Part shown: piece by piece, positions 23,178 through 31,830 of the stretch
How positions within the stretch are numbered: position 1 is the stretch's first letter
How the letters are laid out: the number at the start of each line of letters is the position of its first letter
DNA from: Acidobacteriota bacterium
Lineage (GTDB): Bacteria > Acidobacteriota > Terriglobia > Bryobacterales > Bryobacteraceae
Assembly (NCBI GenBank): GCA_947470805.1
Contig: CANIVU010000084.1
Coordinates: 1-41,688 of the forward strand
DNA length: 41,688 nt
Reading direction: 5' to 3'
Notes under the pieces: generated by a model
The model's database searches: none
The model's input: the letters and a program-made list of their open reading frames with translations, nothing else
Told to the model about the DNA's origin: nothing
Program-made: the position numbers and the translations under genes

Positions 23178-23311
23178 AGTACGACGCGCTTCCCTCGCAA
23201 GCGAAGTTCCACCGGCTGGCAAGCCGGTTTAAGGGGTTCTCCGGACCGGTCGGGTCCGGTATGCTTTCTACTTCGACTTTCTGGAGGTGGCGATTCCTGC
23301 CGACACGGTGA
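23135..23311 (+). pseudogene. Terminase large subunit, N-terminal fragment cut in the Walker A motif
   Basis: 58 codons from ATG 23135. EIEYDALPSQAKFHRLASRF and KGFSGPVGSG match the start of phage terminase ATPases, where the sequence continues with Lys-Ser. Here the codon after the last Gly is ATG and the frame runs on through unrelated residues (MLSTSTFWRWRFL) to TGA. The unrelated part is the tail gene read in another frame, so the junction lies at about 23258-23262. No ATPase or nuclease domain remains, so it cannot act as a terminase. Confidence 0.75.
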
Positions 23312-24744
23312 GCGATCAGACGATCGAAGAAACCGTGACGCTGGCGACGGATTGGGATACCGATCACTCGATCGCGATCCCGGCGGAGCGCACGGCGTGG
23401 ATGATTCATTCGCTGGGTTTCCATGGACGAGTGAACCACTACGTTGGCGCGCTGTGGTTCTACGAGCTGTATCGGAAAGGCCATCAGTACGCTTCGGCTA
23501 CGGTGGACTTCGTGGGTACGCCGACGGTGAACGAATACACCGACATTACGATCGGCCGCGTGGGAGAACCGGAGTCGCTGTTGATGGTTCGCCATTTGAA
23601 TTTGTACGGTGATACAGCGGAGACAATTGCCAAAGCGTTCGAACTGGAGTTCAACCGGGGCTACACGGCGATACGGGCGGAAGCGTCGGCAACGCAGTTA
23701 ACCATTTACGCTCGGGCTATGGGAGAGGCGGGGGAGGCTGTCAGCTTGGACGTTTCGCCCGCGTCGGGTGGATTTTCGCTGACGAAATCGGCGGCGAATC
23801 TGACCGGTGGCCTGGATGGGAATTGGTATACCGATACGATGGCGGATCCGCGGATCAACCGGGCGTGCCGGGATTGGTCCCGCGGTTTCTACGATGCCTG
23901 CAAAGGGTACGGGCTGGACATGACGGCCGCGTTTTCACTGGAATTGCAACATGGCGATCCTTCGGCGGAAGCCGGGATCGGCCAGCGCTATTCCAACGGT
24001 GAGGCGTGCTTGTTGAATACGCCGGCGTTGCAGACGAATTTTTCGCCTGTCAGCCGAGCCTATTGGGAGAAGGTCCACTTGGAAATGGCTGACATTCTGG
24101 CCGCGGCGGGGTATGTGCCGTATCTTCAGTTTGGTGAAGTGCAGTGGTGGTACTTCCCGAACATGGGGCCGTTCGATCCGCCGATCAGCATGCCCTACTA
24201 CGACCAGTACACGAAGGACCAGTTCGAGGCGGCGCATGGATTCCCGCTGCGGTTTATCGGGAATCAGAATGTGAATCCGGCGGACTTTCCGGAGGAGGCG
24301 GCGTTTCTGCCGTCGCTGATTGGAACTTTCACAGATGAGATTCGGGCATATGTACTTGCCGCGCATCCGAACTGTCGATTCGAGGTGCTGTACCCGACAG
24401 ACGTGAACGACAATGCCTGGGGGCACCTGGTGAACTATCCGAACGCGGCGTGGACTCCAGAGAAGCTCACTACCTTAAAGACCGAAAGTTTCGGGTTCAC
24501 GTTCTCGCGAGACCTGAACAAGTCGAAGTATTCGATTGGGTACGGCGAAGGTAAGGGCTTTGACAGAAATCAGCGTTGTTTCCTGGTTGGACCGGGCGAT
24601 TCGTCGACGACCTGGGAGAAGGAGGCGAGGATTGCGAAGAAGCAGAATTTGGAGTCGATCGTGCTGTTCGCGCTTGATCAATTCTGCCTGATTGGCTATC
24701 CCGTACCGTTCTGGAAGGGCCTTCGAAAGGGTAGACGGCTCTAA
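23287..24744 (+). CDS. Tail-type phage protein with TIM-barrel-like domain, 5'-truncated
   Basis: 485 residues from GTG 23287; recognisable sequence (AFYFDFLEVAIPAD) starts upstream at about 23261 in the same frame, where no start codon exists, so the original N-terminus is lost. I recall similar proteins from acidobacterial prophage-like clusters, sharing TDWDTDHSIAI, NHYVGALWFYELYRKGHQYA and ELQHGDPSAEAGIGQRY. The C-terminal 290 residues (LQFGEVQWWYF, RFEVLYPTDVND, SIVLFALDQFCLIGY) look like a glycosidase-type TIM barrel, as in gene-transfer-agent tail proteins. The long frame is undisturbed although its phage is deleted. Exact tail role uncertain. Confidence 0.6.
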   Translation: MAIPADTVSDQTIEETVTLATDWDTDHSIAIPAERTAWMIHSLGFHGRVNHYVGALWFYELYRKGHQYASATVDFVGTPTVNEYTDITIGRVGEPESLLMVRHLNLYGDTAETIAKAFELEFNRGYTAIRAEASATQLTIYARAMGEAGEAVSLDVSPASGGFSLTKSAANLTGGLDGNWYTDTMADPRINRACRDWSRGFYDACKGYGLDMTAAFSLELQHGDPSAEAGIGQRYSNGEACLLNTPALQTNFSPVSRAYWEKVHLEMADILAAAGYVPYLQFGEVQWWYFPNMGPFDPPISMPYYDQYTKDQFEAAHGFPLRFIGNQNVNPADFPEEAAFLPSLIGTFTDEIRAYVLAAHPNCRFEVLYPTDVNDNAWGHLVNYPNAAWTPEKLTTLKTESFGFTFSRDLNKSKYSIGYGEGKGFDRNQRCFLVGPGDSSTTWEKEARIAKKQNLESIVLFALDQFCLIGYPVPFWKGLRKGRRL

Positions 24745-24748
24745 TCGA

Positions 24749-24769
24749 GCCATTAACCGATTTAATGGC
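24749..24769. repeat. Perfect inverted repeat between prophage remnant and ilv promoter
   Basis: GCCATTAA (24749-24756) and TTAATGGC (24762-24769) form an 8-bp stem with a 5-nt loop. No T-run follows. It begins five bases after the stop of the tail-type gene and ends nine bases before the ilv -35. It could be a regulator binding site or a weak transcript end. Confidence 0.45.
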
Positions 24770-24778
24770 GGCGAAGAG

Positions 24779-24807
24779 TTGCATTTAGTTCGCTTTTGAC
24801 TTAACCT
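24779..24807 (+). promoter_or_regulatory. Putative promoter of the ilv operon
   Basis: TTGCAT (24779-24784), 17-bp spacer, TAACCT (24802-24807). The predicted transcript start coincides with GTG 24814, the first codon of the leader peptide. The same spacing and TTGCA-type -35 are seen before the gene at 2565. Confidence 0.55.
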
Positions 24808-24813
24808 CAAAAG

Positions 24814-24945
24814 GTGAGCTGTGAACGCACCCAAAATCTCTCGCTGGCCAACGGTCGCGGAGGCGTGCGCCGGCTCGTAGTCACCGGCATTATTCCCATC
24901 GTAGTAGTAGCCATTATCGGGGTCACCGTAACGGACCCCGCCTGA
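24814..24945 (+). CDS. ilvL: Leader peptide of the ilv operon, rich in Ile and Val codons
   Basis: 43 codons from GTG 24814 to TGA 24943-24945; GTG 24865 would give 26. Residues 21-39 read LVVTGIIPIVVVAIIGVTV: seven Val, five Ile and one Leu in 19 positions, with the run GTA GTA GTA at its centre. These are the amino acids made by the enzymes encoded downstream. Starved ribosomes would stall here and change folding of the RNA behind, as in known ilv and leu leaders. The stop codon lies inside a segment that can pair in two ways. GTG 24814 has no ribosome binding site but sits at the predicted transcript start. Confidence 0.8.
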   Translation: MSCERTQNLSLANGRGGVRRLVVTGIIPIVVVAIIGVTVTDPA

Positions 24946-25010
24946 GTGGCACCTAACGATTCGAAATCGAGGCCACCGGCGGGGATCCAACCCAGCCGGT
25001 GGCCTTTTTT
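24918..25010 (+). promoter_or_regulatory. Transcription attenuator of the ilvBNC-cimA operon
   Basis: Four segments give three exclusive hairpins. 1:2, a 7-bp stem (24918-24924 with 24934-24940). 2:3, the antiterminator, 12 bp in two blocks (24936-24942 with 24978-24984; 24946-24950 with 24972-24976), with a small hairpin (24957-24961 with 24965-24969) in its loop. 3:4, the terminator (24971-24980 with 24995-25004). A ribosome stalled on the Ile/Val codons (24889-24930) would cover segment 1 and free segment 2 to pair with 3, letting RNA polymerase read on. With ample amino acids 1:2 forms and 3:4 terminates. Confidence 0.85.
24971..25010 (+). terminator. Attenuator terminator hairpin upstream of ilvB
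   Basis: Perfect 10-bp GC-rich stem (24971-24980 with 24995-25004), 14-nt loop, six T residues (25005-25010). It lies 45 bases before the ilvB start and on the path from the ilv promoter, so it is regulatory rather than the end of a gene. Confidence 0.92.
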
Positions 25011-25055
25011 AGTGTTTGGGAAGCGTGAACGGTAGGCGAAACAGGGAGTGAAAAC

Positions 25056-26780
25056 ATGTCTCAACTGATGAGTGGCGCAAAAATCCTGCTCGAATGTCTG
25101 GCCCGCGAGGGCGTGGATACAATCTTCGGCTATCCCGGTGGCGTAACCCTGCCGCTGTACGACGCGATGTACGATAACCCGATCCGGCACATCCTGGTTC
25201 GGCACGAACAGAATGCGGCGTTTGCGGCGCAAGGGTATTCGCGGTCGACGGGGAAAGTCGGCGTCTGCTGTGCGACGTCCGGCCCCGGCGCGACCAACCT
25301 GGTAACGGGACTCGTGGACGCGATGATGGATTCGATCCCTGTGGTCGCGCTGACCGGCCAGGTGACGGCGAAGTTGATCGGCAGCGATGCATTCCAGGAA
25401 GCTGATACGTTCGGCATCACGCGCTCGGCTACGAAACACAATTACCTGGTTAAGAACGTCAACGAATTGCCGCAGGTAATTCACGAAGCGTTCTACATCG
25501 CCGCCAGCGGCCGCCCAGGCCCGGTGTTGGTGGACATTACTAAGGACGTGTTCCAGGGCAACGCCCACTACACGCCGGTGACCTCGATCCATCTTCCTGG
25601 TTATAAGGTTTATACGGAAGGCCATACGGGCCAGATCCGCCGCGCCGCACAGATGATGCTGGAAGCCGAACGGCCGATGATTTACGCCGGTGGCGGTATC
25701 GTTCTGTCGAACGCCAGCGCGGAATTGCGCGAGCTGGTGGAGTTGGTCGACGCGCCGACGGTTTGCACGTTGATGGGCCTGGGCACGCTCGGCTCCGAAC
25801 ATCCTAACTTCATCAGCATGCCCGGCATGCACGGCAGCTATGCCGCCAACATGGGCATGTACGGTACCGATTTGATCATCGCCTTGGGCGTCCGATTCGA
25901 CGACCGTGTAACGGGCCGGTTGAACGCCTTCGCCCCGCATGCTCGCATCATTCACGTCGACATCGATCCGGCCGAGATCAGCAAGATTCGCAACGCCGAT
26001 CTGCCGATCGTGGGCGACCTGAAGCGCGTGCTGCCGAAGATCAACGCGGTGTTGAAAGAACTGCTCCCTGAAGTGGGCGAACGCCCGGGCCTGAAGGCTT
26101 GGTGGAAGCAGGTCCGCGAGTGGAAGGCCGAGCATCCGCTTCGCTACGATACGGCCGACGATGTGATCAAGCCGCAGCATTTGATGCGCGAAATCGACCG
26201 TTTGACCAAGGGCGAGGCGATCGTTTGCAGTGACGTGGGCCAGCACCAGATGTGGGCGGCACAGTTGATTCGCTTCAACGAACCGCGGCTTTGGATTAAC
26301 TCCGGTGGTCTAGGTTCGATGGGTTTTGGGTTGCCGAGCGCGCTGGGCGCCCAGGTGGCCAATCCGAATCAGCTCGTCATCGCCATCTGCGGTGACGGCG
26401 GCTTCCAGATGTCGATCCCCGAACTGGCGACGCTTTTCAACTTTGGCCTGCCGGTGAAGGTAATCGTCATGAACAACGGGTACCTGGGGATGGTACGCCA
26501 GTGGCAGGAGCTGTTCTATGCCAATCGCTTGTCCCAGGTTACGCTCGACGGTTTCCCTGACCCGGTGCAGTTGGCCGGCGCTTACGGCTTCAAGGGCCGC
26601 ACGGTGGAACGGCCGTCGGAGTTGGCGGAGGCGCTGGCGACGGCGTTCGCAGATCCAGGCCCCTATCTTTTGAATGTGAAAGTTGCCCCGACCGAGAACG
26701 TGTTCCCGATGGTTCCCGCCGGCGGAGCGATTAATGAAATGGTGCTCACGCCGCCGCAACCGGCTGAGCTGCGGAAGTAG
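25056..26780 (+). CDS. ilvB: Acetolactate synthase, large catalytic subunit
   Basis: 574 residues, standard length. A ThDP- and FAD-dependent enzyme that joins two pyruvates to 2-acetolactate (Val/Leu) or pyruvate with 2-oxobutyrate to acetohydroxybutyrate (Ile). The N-terminal Pyr domain has catalytic E51 (VRHEQNAAFAAQGY), the middle FAD domain follows, and the ThDP motif begins GDGGFQMSIPEL at about residue 446 and ends MNNGYLGMVRQW. AGGGAG lies seven bases before the ATG. First structural gene after the attenuator; ilvN follows after 15 bases. Confidence 0.97.
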   Translation: MSQLMSGAKILLECLAREGVDTIFGYPGGVTLPLYDAMYDNPIRHILVRHEQNAAFAAQGYSRSTGKVGVCCATSGPGATNLVTGLVDAMMDSIPVVALTGQVTAKLIGSDAFQEADTFGITRSATKHNYLVKNVNELPQVIHEAFYIAASGRPGPVLVDITKDVFQGNAHYTPVTSIHLPGYKVYTEGHTGQIRRAAQMMLEAERPMIYAGGGIVLSNASAELRELVELVDAPTVCTLMGLGTLGSEHPNFISMPGMHGSYAANMGMYGTDLIIALGVRFDDRVTGRLNAFAPHARIIHVDIDPAEISKIRNADLPIVGDLKRVLPKINAVLKELLPEVGERPGLKAWWKQVREWKAEHPLRYDTADDVIKPQHLMREIDRLTKGEAIVCSDVGQHQMWAAQLIRFNEPRLWINSGGLGSMGFGLPSALGAQVANPNQLVIAICGDGGFQMSIPELATLFNFGLPVKVIVMNNGYLGMVRQWQELFYANRLSQVTLDGFPDPVQLAGAYGFKGRTVERPSELAEALATAFADPGPYLLNVKVAPTENVFPMVPAGGAINEMVLTPPQPAELRK

Positions 26781-26795
26781 AAACGAGGATTGACC

Positions 26796-27347
26796 ATGTT
26801 GCAGATCATCAGCATTTTATTGGAGAACAAGACCGGTGCGCTTATGCGCGTCACCGGTCTGCTCACCGCGCGCGGCTATAACATCGACAGCCTGACGGTG
26901 GCGCGGACGCTGGACCCCGAGCTCTCGCGGATGACAATCGGTGTGGCTATCGAGCCGCACCAGCGCCGCCAGTTGATTAAGCATATGAACAAGCTGATCA
27001 ACGTGCTCCAGGCAACGGATTTGACCGACTCGCCGGCAGTGACTCGCGAGTTAGTGTTGATGCGCGTGCGCGCCCCGCAGGAATCGCGCACTGCGATTTT
27101 GAAAGAAGCCGAGATTTTCGGCGCTCGTGTGGTGGATTCGACGCTGGAGGGCTTCGCATTGGAAGCCACTGGTGACATTGAAAAGCTCGACGAGTTCATC
27201 GATATCATGCGCAGTTATGGCGAGATTGAAGTTACTCGCGGCGGCGCCGTGGCAGTTTCACTGGAGTCCAAGAAACTCCGCCTTTCTCCCCCCGTGCCCC
27301 GCGGCGCTGAGGAAGGAAAGTCGGAAGAGAAAAACGGAGTTATTTAA
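26796..27347 (+). CDS. ilvN: Acetolactate synthase, small regulatory subunit
   Basis: 183 residues from ATG 26796 (ACGAGG eight bases upstream). An N-terminal ACT domain ([32 protein letters not shown]) binds valine for feedback inhibition and activates the large subunit; a C-terminal ACT-like domain follows (about residues 80-160). This is the long IlvH-like type, not the 90-residue E. coli IlvN. The last 20 residues are a charged tail. Its TAA shares one base with the ilvC start (TAATG), so the two are translationally coupled. Confidence 0.96.
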
Positions 27348-28366
27348 TGCTGAATCGTTACTACGAAAAAGACGGTAACCCGAGCCTGCTGAAGGACCGG
27401 ACGTTTGCCATCATCGGTTATGGCAGCCAGGGCCATGCGCATGCGCTGAACCTGCGCGATTCGGGCGCGGACGTGATTGTCGGTCTCTATCCGGGATCGA
27501 AGAGCTGGGCCAAAGCGGAAGCCGCCGGTCTCCGCGTGATGACCACCGCGGAAGCGACGAAAGCCGCCGACACCATCATGGTGCTCGTCAGCGACCACAT
27601 CCAGCCGGATCTGTACGAGACCGAGATCGCCCCGAACCTTACCGCCGGCAAGACGTTGATGTTCGCACACGGCTTCTCCATCCACTTCGGCTACGTGAAG
27701 CCGCCGGCCGATGTCGACGTCAGCCTGATCGCGCCCAAGTCGCCTGGTCATCGCGTTCGCGAACTGTTCGTCGAAAACGTTGGCGTTCCTGGCCTCGTTG
27801 CGGTGCAGCAGAATCCCTCGGGCAAGGCGCTTGAAAATGCTTTGGCGTACGCGCTGGGCATTGGCTGCCTGCGCGCTGGCGTGATTGAAACCACGTTCAA
27901 GGAAGAAGCCGAAACCGATCTCTTCGGGGAACAGACCGTTCTTTGCGGCGGCACCAGCGAACTGATCAAGGCTGGCTTTGAAACGCTGGTGGAAGCCGGT
28001 TATGCGCCGGAAATGGCGTATTTCGAGTGCCTGCACGAGTTAAAACTGATCGTCGACCTCATCTATGAGGGCGGCCTGAAGTACATGCGCTACTCGGTTT
28101 CCGACACAGCCGAGTACGGCGACTACGTGACCGGGCCGCGCCTGGTCAACGCCGAAACCAAAGCCGAAATGAAGCGCGTTCTTGCTGAAATTCAGGACGG
28201 TACTTTCGCCCGCAACTGGATGAACGAGAACCGGACGGGACGTCATAAGTTCCTGGCCATGCGCGAAGCCAACCAGACGCACCAGATCGAGACGGTGGGT
28301 CAAGAACTCCGGGCCATGATGCCCTTCCTCAAAAAGAAGAAGGAAGCCGGCGTACCGGAAGCCTAA
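27347..28366 (+). CDS. ilvC: Ketol-acid reductoisomerase (class I)
   Basis: 339 residues, the short class I form. It isomerises and reduces acetolactate or acetohydroxybutyrate with Mg2+ and NAD(P)H. The Rossmann motif [17 protein letters not shown], then [10 protein letters not shown], and the acidic metal site [16 protein letters not shown] are intact. The cofactor loop reads [10 protein letters not shown], with Tyr where many members of the class have Arg, which may alter the NADPH/NADH preference. Coupled to ilvN by a one-base overlap. Confidence 0.97.
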
Positions 28367-28408: not shown

Positions 28409-30022
28409 ATGCGCATCTTTACCTTCGACACGACTCTCCGCGATGGCACGCAAGGCGAAGCCGTCTCTTTCTCTGTCGAGGACAAGCTGATTATCAGTCA
28501 GAAACTGGATGACCTGGGAATTGACTACATTGAGGGCGGCTGGCCCGGATCCAATCCGAAAGACAAAGAGTTTTTTGCGCGAGCCAAGGACGAGCTGCGG
28601 CTGAAACATGCCAAGCTTGTGGCTTTTGGCTCGACGCACTTCGCTCGGAACAGCGTAGATACGGACCCAAACGTGCGGGAGTTGCTGGGAGCGGAAACGC
28701 CCGTTATCAGCATCTTCGGTAAGACCTGGGATTTCCATGTAACCCGTGCGTTGGGCATTACGCTTGAAGAGAATCTGAAGATCATCGCCAACACCGTCAG
28801 CTACTTGAAGCAGCACGGGCGCGAAGTTGTCTACGACGCCGAGCACTTCTTTGACGGGTATGCGGCGAACCCCGAGTACGCGCTCCAAACGCTCCAAGCC
28901 GCGCATGACGCGGGCGCCGATGTGCTGTGCCTCTGCGACACCAATGGCGGAACGATTACCTCGAAGGTGCGGGAAGCGGTAGCTGTCGTGCGGGAGCGGT
29001 TTAGTGGCGTGATCGGCATCCATCCCCACAACGATTCCGACGTAGCGGTAGCGAACGCACTGGCGGCCATTGAAGCCGGCGCGACCCACGTGCAAGGGTG
29101 CATGAATGGCTACGGAGAACGCTGCGGAAACGCCAATTTGGCGTCGGTTATCGCTAATTTAGAGCTGAAACTAGGCTACGAAACGATTGGACGGGAGAAG
29201 CTTTCCGGCCTGACTGGAGTGGCTCGCTTCATTGCCGAACTTGCCAATCTCCAGATTCCGAACGGCCAGCCGTACGTCGGCCAAAGCGCATTCGCGCACA
29301 AGGGAGGCGTGCACGTGAGCGCGGTGTTGAAGGATTCGGCCACCTACGAACACGTACGGCCGGAGACGGTGGGCAATCGCCAACGTGTGTTGGTGAGCGA
29401 TCTGTCGGGCCGCAGCAACATCTTCTACAAGCTGAAGGAACATGGGCTCGAAGAGAAGCTGAATGAGGATTCGCGCAAGTACCTGCTGGAAAAGATCAAG
29501 CAGATGGAGTTTGAGGGCTACGAACTGGAAGCGGCTGAAGGCACCTTTGAACTCATGGTCCGGGAAGCGCTCAATCCGGGCAAAAACTTCTTCCAGGTTG
29601 TCAGCTTTGATGTGACGACGAAGATGGGCCGCAGCGGTGGCTCGTTGACGATGGCTACGCTGTCCCTCCAGGCAGCCGATGGCCTGCATACGGAAACCGC
29701 GGTGGGCAACGGCCCGGTGAACGCGCTGGACTTGTGCCTGCGCGAATGCCTGGTGGGCAACTACCCGGCTATCAAAAACGTCAAGCTCACCGACTACAAA
29801 GTGCGCGTGATCGACTCGAAGAAAGGCACGGCGGCAAAAGTTCGCGTGCTGATCGAATGGAGCGACCAGAAGCGTTCCTGGGCGACGGTTGGTGTCTCCG
29901 ATAACGTCATCGAAGCCAGCTGGAAGGCGCTTGTTGACGCGATCCGGCTGGAGTTGATGCGCCTTTCCGATAAGGACGACGCGCTGGAAAAAGCAGTGGA
30001 AGATTATTGCTGGGGCGTCTAG
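28409..30022 (+). CDS. cimA: (R)-citramalate synthase
   Basis: 537 residues, standard for the CimA branch of the HMGL/isopropylmalate synthase family. It condenses acetyl-CoA and pyruvate to citramalate, the entry to threonine-independent isoleucine synthesis. The catalytic arginine is in TFDTTLRDGTQGEAVSFS and the metal site in GIHPHNDSDVAVAN; the C-terminal LeuA dimerisation domain occupies about residues 390-520. The N-terminal GGWPGSNPKD segment is characteristic of CimA rather than LeuA. AGGAG precedes the ATG. It completes the ilv operon, so 2-oxobutyrate for IlvBN can come from pyruvate. Its stop codon overlaps that of the convergent DUF885 gene (CTAG). Confidence 0.95.
   Translation: MRIFTFDTTLRDGTQGEAVSFSVEDKLIISQKLDDLGIDYIEGGWPGSNPKDKEFFARAKDELRLKHAKLVAFGSTHFARNSVDTDPNVRELLGAETPVISIFGKTWDFHVTRALGITLEENLKIIANTVSYLKQHGREVVYDAEHFFDGYAANPEYALQTLQAAHDAGADVLCLCDTNGGTITSKVREAVAVVRERFSGVIGIHPHNDSDVAVANALAAIEAGATHVQGCMNGYGERCGNANLASVIANLELKLGYETIGREKLSGLTGVARFIAELANLQIPNGQPYVGQSAFAHKGGVHVSAVLKDSATYEHVRPETVGNRQRVLVSDLSGRSNIFYKLKEHGLEEKLNEDSRKYLLEKIKQMEFEGYELEAAEGTFELMVREALNPGKNFFQVVSFDVTTKMGRSGGSLTMATLSLQAADGLHTETAVGNGPVNALDLCLRECLVGNYPAIKNVKLTDYKVRVIDSKKGTAAKVRVLIEWSDQKRSWATVGVSDNVIEASWKALVDAIRLELMRLSDKDDALEKAVEDYCWGV

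Positions 30023-31753: not shown

Positions 31754-31830
<77 letters not shown>

Follow-up and report, generated by a model that had tools for sequence, protein, structure and literature searches.

A putative leader-peptide attenuator ahead of ilvBNC-cimA in an acidobacterium and related leaders on other branched-chain amino acid genes

Does translation of a short peptide decide whether an acidobacterium transcribes its genes for valine and isoleucine synthesis? The question is raised by a 41,688-nucleotide (nt) stretch of DNA, hereafter the window, which is contig CANIVU010000084.1 (C84) of an 8.7-Mb Acidobacteriota genome (G000, assembly GCA_947470805.1). Positions 24779-25010 of the window, within the stretch 24779-25056 that the original prediction had read as a complete leader-peptide attenuator, are followed by the genes ilvB-ilvN-ilvC-cimA. 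We consider it very probable that this region is a ribosome-mediated transcription attenuator that would couple ilvBNC-cimA to the supply of charged tRNA-Val and tRNA-Ile, on the basis of its anatomy, its conservation, the covariation of its helices and codon positions that fit the RNA geometry.

Leader peptide and alternative RNA helices

The region comprises the following features.

24779-24807, plus strand: candidate promoter, with a -35 box TTGCAT (24779-24784), a 17-nt spacer and a -10 box TAACCT (24802-24807)
24814-24945, plus strand: leader peptide open reading frame (ORF), GTG start, 43 codons, TGA stop, Ile/Val-rich end
24889-24930, plus strand: regulatory codons, best kept at ribosomal A-site positions -9, -7 and -5
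24916-24918, 24922-24924 and 24928-24930, plus strand: key codons -9 (Ile), -7 (Val) and -5 (Val, GTA), counted back from the stop
24919-24924, plus strand: segment 1, GGGGTC, pairing with GACCCC at 24934-24939 (anti-antiterminator 1:2, from the fold and a permutation test)
24933-24950, plus strand: segment 2, GGA-CCCCGCC-TGA-GTGGC, which overlaps the 3' end of the leader ORF, stop included
24957-24969, plus strand: small 5-bp hairpin inside the antiterminator, from the fold
24971-24988, plus strand: segment 3, the terminator 5' arm (24971-24980) overlapping GGCGGGG (24978-24984) and UCC (24986-24988)
24995-25010, plus strand: segment 4, the terminator 3' arm (24995-25004) and a T6 tract (25005-25010)

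The leader translates as VSCERTQNLSLANGRGGVRRLVVTGIIPIVVVAIIGVTVTDPA, with 13 isoleucines, leucines or valines (I/L/V) within residues 21-39; this leader and its promoter are present in the sequence as originally described, and the promoter is kept in relatives. None of 1,000 dinucleotide shuffles of 24745-25055 reached at least the observed value of 9 I/L/V in 12 residues (one reached 8), and a chance ORF was rejected on this count.

Behind the leader, the arms GGCCACCGGC (24971-24980) and GCCGGTGGCC (24995-25004) form 10 perfect pairs followed by T6, bearing out the predicted 10-bp terminator with six T. GGCGGGG and UCC of segment 3 pair with segment 2 to give the antiterminator 2:3, for which a fold of 24934-24988 yields 15 long-range pairs plus the 5-bp inner hairpin rather than the 12 paired positions first counted. 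Isolated helix energies are -11.4 (1:2), -26.7 (2:3) and -30.1 kcal/mol (3:4), and the fold of the whole leader has z = -3.4, with 0 of 200 shuffles equally stable. The outcome of blocking the leader, a check proposed with the prediction, depends on how far the block extends: with the leader masked to 24928, a transcript ending at 24990 folds best into the antiterminator, and with masking to 24955 the antiterminator is gone. The 1:2 hairpin is present in the full-length leader fold.

Conservation and covariation among related loci

We compared the window's own locus (L001) with its group of related loci, family f1, in which 47 loci have usable upstream sequence (L010, L032, L033 and L035 have none). 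A leader ORF with a hairpin behind it precedes ilvB in 47 of 47, the leader ending 81-214 nt before the gene, and the hairpin ends in a run of at least four T in 43 and of three T in the other 4. Because each leader had been chosen as the most I/L/V-rich candidate, a like-for-like count with one function for all groups was needed; by this count, 37/47 f1 loci contain a short ORF with a 12-residue stretch holding 8 or more I/L/V, versus 3/73 loci without Acidobacteria in their title. A covariance model built from 45 f1 loci found a match at E <= 0.01 in 57 of 61 family genomes; 34 of the 61 had no part in model building, and 29 of these 34 gave a full-length match somewhere in the genome.

Alignment of 45 loci (L004 and L005 omitted as near-duplicates) places the stop codon in a single column, as TGA, TAG or TAA in 34, 9 and 2 leaders. 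Nineteen pairs of leader ends with an identity of at least 75% show 33, 25 and 64 differences at the first, second and third codon positions, and their codon changes comprise 41 synonymous and 52 non-synonymous ones; the excess at the third position is genuine, if modest. The valine codon GTA accounts for 110/186 Val codons in leader ends versus 49/680 in 21 ORFs of the window, and codon -5 is GTA in 32 of 45 leaders.

All three helices covary. The antiterminator core occurs in compensatory variants (CCCCGCC:GGCGGGG, TTCGCCTG:CAGGCGAA, GCCTGCT:AGCAGGC and TTCCTGCCTG:CAGGCGGGAA), and its own mean energy across the 45 loci, -16.62 kcal/mol, was matched by 0 of 5,000 between-species swaps (mean -14.49, best -15.51). 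A weaker second antiterminator helix just past the stop was equalled in 0/5,000 swaps by energy and 38/5,000 by helix length. The 1:2 pairing gave -10.38 kcal/mol against a permuted mean of -8.33 (0/5,000 as good), and both sides have changed in 6 of 11 consensus pairs of the terminator. This alignment-based test, made for f1 only, superseded a first swap test on automatically drawn segments, which was noisy since the terminator finder mis-drew several hairpins of family f3 (see below); that first test gave own versus swapped energies of -25.75 and -22.22 in f1 (own in the best tenth in 15/47), -26.98 and -25.47 in families f2 and f3 (4/17, L120 omitted), and -18.37 and -13.07 in seven loci of other families (4/7). 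Lack of conservation of the Ile/Val run or of the 2:3 pairing in relatives had been named beforehand as a refutation; both are kept in f1, with compensatory changes present.

Sensor codons, ribosome position and proposed mechanism

We modelled 45 leaders with the ribosomal A site at each codon in turn, letting the ribosome cover 12 nt counted in the 3' direction from the first base of the A site, and computing the pairing open to RNA that had emerged as far as the terminator loop; the drawn terminator is wrong in L029 and over-extended in some others, which adds noise. On average, 15.4 pairs of 2:3 could form with the A site at -9/-8, 10.1 with it at -5 and 1.4 once it reached the stop. I/L/V codons peak at -9 (38/45, 27 of them Ile), -7 (39/45, 38 Val) and -5 (38/45, 34 Val), and Leu is rare at these positions (2, 0 and 2 of 45). 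In this model, a ribosome stalled at the best-conserved Ile and Val codons would leave the antiterminator free to form.

We propose that RNA polymerase would start near 24814 and that the transcript would begin at or beside the leader GTG, which would make ribosome loading possible without a Shine-Dalgarno site. When Val- or Ile-tRNA is scarce, the ribosome would stall with its A site on one of the codons -9 to -5, covering segment 1 and leaving segment 2 free to pair with segment 3 upon emergence; this pairing would hold the terminator 5' arm, and transcription would continue through ilvB, ilvN, ilvC and cimA. Under good supply, the ribosome would reach the TGA and cover segment 2, the 3:4 terminator would form, and transcripts would end near 25005-25010. 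In the absence of translation, 1:2 could form first and might likewise favour 3:4, a step with weaker evidence. We infer the leaderless start, the stalling, the termination and the physiological response.

Promoter and leader start

The predicted transcription start lies near 24814. In 44/47 f1 loci the leader is preceded by a TTGCA box followed after 16-18 nt by a TANNNT box, by a search pattern that was picked after the genus alignment had been seen; in that alignment (n = 13), TTGCATTT and TA..CT are invariant. Only one site in the 8.7-Mb genome fits the extended promoter pattern followed by a start codon. A simple consensus scan of the window called no promoter here and did not list the terminator either. 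A generic promoter score (at least 7/12 consensus bases near the leader start; 14/71 loci versus 46/1,908 control codons) missed f1's own boxes and was dropped in favour of the TTGCA search.

The first in-frame ATG, GTG, TTG or CTG falls 0-9 nt past the -10 box in 31/44 loci and 12-25 nt past it in 13/44. In the window, the GTG sits 6 nt past the -10 box, and within the genus the start codon occupies one aligned place, as ATG in L008 and GTG in the other members. No ribosome-binding site is apparent ahead of the leader ORF. The usual distance from a -10 box to the first transcribed base is 6-8 nt; leaders of the larger group, the window's included, would therefore be leaderless or nearly so, and its translation in the window probably proceeds with no ribosome-binding site.

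Wider spread within and beyond the order

In families f2 and f3 of the same order, an ORF ends at the aligned stop in 17 of 18 loci (15 ending in PG and 2 in LG before the stop), the f3 locus L120 reading through it, and most loci have a CCCCGG:CCGGGG-type pairing. At 7 of 12 I/L/V, 8/18 f2/f3 loci score versus 11/73 in the background. In f3 loci L118, L120-L124 and L126-L129, the leader and an antiterminator-like pairing are mostly kept and there is no clear T tract; termination in these loci may be weak, Rho-dependent or lost.

Outside the order, a leader plus terminator was found in 4/57 loci of the same class and 6/25 of other classes, a set in which 3 of 82 loci have short upstream sequence and leaders ahead of operons that start with another gene would be missed. 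A further three loci of the same class (L131, L132 and L134) had neither. In seven outside loci that we folded (L158, L162, L210, L211, L213, L217 and L228), it is the region of the stop codon that forms pairs with the 5' arm of the terminator (GGATAACGGCC:GGCCGTTATCC in L162 is an example). The antiterminator register in these loci differs from that of f1, and the design may therefore have more than one origin.

Further attenuators on other branched-chain amino acid genes

Searches with the model and with genes yielded five further attenuators, ahead of a stand-alone cimA, two genes resembling the acetohydroxyacid synthase (AHAS) small subunit and two ACT-ilvA operons.

L290 (G025:C1:203500-209000, locus 414-536): attenuator with the stand-alone cimA directly downstream, model E = 7e-11
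L289 (G000:C98:13300-19000, locus 330-440): second attenuator in the window's genome, model E = 4e-4
Second further site in G025: before an AHAS small-subunit gene, model E = 2e-6
Site in G020: before an ACT-domain gene, model E = 2e-10
Site in G032: before ACT-ilvA, leader MNVPVQSLLITLAAAIIIVGSA followed by the stop, found by the IlvA search

The stand-alone cimA has a full site with an Ile-only leader (MLTFLSIGIIIGAGITSPA followed by the stop). On contig 98 of the window's genome, an Ile-rich leader ending in AMAIIMIANSA at its stop, followed by a terminator, precedes an AHAS-small-subunit-like ACT-domain gene that overlaps a gene for threonine ammonia-lyase (ilvA). All five sites have a terminator hairpin of -25 to -30 kcal/mol; 2:3 pairing is weak at two of them, with 6 pairs on contig 98 and 7 at the small-subunit site of G025, wobbles included. 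Among 26 ilvA-like loci examined, such a leader stands before two only (in the window's genome and in G032), a third ilvA locus with an upstream ACT gene (L310) and 23 ilvA loci without ACT having none. Other matches of the model (R1) were rejected as attenuators: L293 and L295 are plain terminators, L294 and L297 are chance as far as can be judged, and several short minus-strand matches reflect the palindromic terminator.

Codon -5 is Ile in 5/5 further leaders versus 2/45 ilvB leaders, where it is Val in 34/45 (Fisher p = 1e-5 for Ile, uncorrected for relatedness and at a position chosen after the data had been seen). CimA and IlvA feed isoleucine only, whereas ilvBNC serve valine, leucine and isoleucine, and the change from Val to Ile therefore fits the product. 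We incline, if only slightly, to the view that Acidobacteriota of the Bryobacterales type (Bryobacterales being an order within the phylum) deploy a single attenuator design across a small regulon, in which a shared leader-stop-terminator scaffold, with a mostly leaderless leader peptide on ilvBNC, stands before ilvBNC(-cimA), stand-alone cimA, AHAS-small-subunit-like genes and ACT-ilvA, and in which a sensor codon for Ile takes the place of one for Val wherever the downstream enzyme acts for isoleucine only. The most interesting addition is this set of leaders whose decisive codon is Ile. The five offer a natural test of a change in sensed amino acid by codon swap at a fixed place in a constant RNA frame.

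Points against the attenuator and alternative explanations

Several observations weigh against a ribosome-controlled switch. Once the leader is complete, the terminator is favoured over the antiterminator in stability, even with codons masked, and the switch must therefore act during transcription. Of 27 ribosome positions modelled for the window's genome, just 2 do not favour 2:3 over 1:2, which would limit 1:2 to a kinetic role, that of forming first; all three hairpins originally proposed as exclusive were found and covary, but 1:2 is not thermodynamically dominant over 2:3 in this genome. Ten of the 47 f1 leaders fall under the 8-of-12 measure. The antiterminator core has only 4-6 pairs in the same-genus loci L011-L014, L016 and L017 (in the last, codons -9 and -5 encode Gly and Leu), and the permutation tests ignore the relatedness of loci. 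A 48th f1-like locus on a Bryobacterales contig (L034) has a short leader without an Ile/Val run and no clear terminator; it retains TTGCAT-17-TACGGT followed by ATG, and its attenuator has probably been lost. In f2/f3, I/L/V density is not clearly above background (8 of 12 in 1/18 versus 3/73), and about 10 of 18 loci have no clear T tract (clear in about 8).

We consider two alternatives very improbable, both to a similar degree. The hairpin could merely terminate the upstream gene at 23287-24744, or be an unregulated leader terminator, with the hydrophobic ORF encoding a small membrane protein. The strength of the terminator, the hydrophobic end of the peptide and the end of an unrelated ORF at 24744 fit this account, but a conserved promoter lies between that gene and the leader, and among relatives it is the length and N-terminal part of the peptide that vary, whereas codons -9, -7 and -5 and the pairing across the stop codon are kept; the arrangement also recurs on other branched-chain amino acid genes. 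Alternatively, the leader might act through Rho or through access to the ilvB ribosome-binding site instead of an intrinsic terminator, as the f2/f3 relatives lacking a clear T tract, most of them with a leader and antiterminator-like pairing, would suggest. This too we regard as very unlikely for the window, given the T run at the end of the f1 hairpin, the covariation of the hairpin's pairs and a T tract that ends 45 nt before ilvB.

A ligand-binding riboswitch or T-box has a negligible chance: a ppGpp riboswitch does precede ilvB in some bacteria, according to PMC10272879, yet tRNA is the only Rfam 15 match in the window at the gathering threshold, a relaxed-threshold search of the leader and 14 loci (L001 and 13 relatives) gave no riboswitch or T-box, the sole leader-type match was Thr_leader in L213 (32.1 bits, cut-off 55), and conservation tracks codons and alternative helices. 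Ribosome-mediated attenuation accordingly remains our preferred reading of the region.

Operon and genome context

The four genes behind the attenuator were each confirmed by NCBIfam families.

25056-26780, plus strand: ilvB, acetolactate synthase large subunit (TIGR00118)
26790-27347, plus strand: ilvN, acetolactate synthase small subunit (TIGR00119)
27347-28366, plus strand: ilvC, ketol-acid reductoisomerase (NF004017/TIGR00465)
28409-30022, plus strand: cimA, citramalate synthase (TIGR00977, and synteny)

The claim that the operon includes cimA is upheld by synteny as well: cimA follows ilvC in 14/15 f1 loci checked downstream, plus L133, the f1 exception being G025 (L241), which has no cimA in the stretch fetched of its ilv operon. 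The same order holds in 17/18 f2/f3 loci; the contig of the eighteenth ends inside ilvC. The closest named ilvB genes lie on a contig titled Acidobacteria (86% identical) and on contigs titled Bryobacterales (76% and 73%), which supports the acidobacterial type of genome assumed in the original prediction.

For the gene upstream of the attenuator, at 23287-24744, no NCBIfam family gave a match; its product resembles a TIM-barrel domain of phage-type tail sheaths (PF23845, E 1.7e-15). A tRNA-Arg gene with anticodon TCT lies at 31754-31830. A leuA-like gene of the window's genome (564 bits, family cut-off 598.7) has no Leu leader within the 450 nt inspected.

Comparison with known systems

Enterobacterial ilv leaders, such as those of Escherichia coli ilvB and ilvGMEDA, combine a leader peptide rich in regulated codons with an exclusive antiterminator and terminator and control the first enzymes of branched-chain amino acid synthesis. 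The acidobacterial element resembles them in all three respects; it differs in having no apparent leader ribosome-binding site and in an operon that includes cimA, and it matches no Rfam leader family above its cut-off. A report by Morbach from 2000 is said, by its title, to concern leader peptide formation without a ribosome-binding site in the context of the Corynebacterium ilvBNC attenuator, and one by Canestrari from 2020 reportedly describes leaderless polycysteine attenuators of mycobacteria. The latter would share with the present element a leaderless short ORF as amino-acid sensor, and differ in sensing cysteine and in belonging to mycobacteria.

By the descriptions in PMC10272879 and PMC11857589, the Corynebacterium ilvBNC attenuator, or ilvB-II motif, has the same first three genes, an upstream ORF (uORF) rich in branched-chain amino acid codons, a terminator, an antiterminator and an anti-antiterminator; it comes from another phylum, and its operon is named ilvBNC, without cimA. 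A uORF of this codon content before ilvB is likewise common to our element, to ilvB-OMG (41 representatives, various phyla) and to the Leptospira ilvB motif, again compared by description only, in a source that also cites E. coli ilvB attenuation and proposes uORF attenuation of ilvB as common (PMC10272879). In the main text of that paper, the string "Acidobacteri-" is absent, and at the three main-text places examined PMC4833913 names Acidobacteria only for leader-gene distances. Among the literature matches listed, seen as titles and abstract openings, none describes such an attenuator in Acidobacteriota; the broad comparative survey of Lopatovskaya 2010 could contain one.

The kind of element is thus known from Enterobacteria, Actinobacteria and ilvB-OMG and, as far as the literature searched shows, is new for Acidobacteriota. 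If true, our reading would supply a testable prediction for the control of valine and isoleucine synthesis, including the citramalate route, in a phylum many of whose members are hard to grow, and would extend the range of clear amino-acid attenuation to that phylum.

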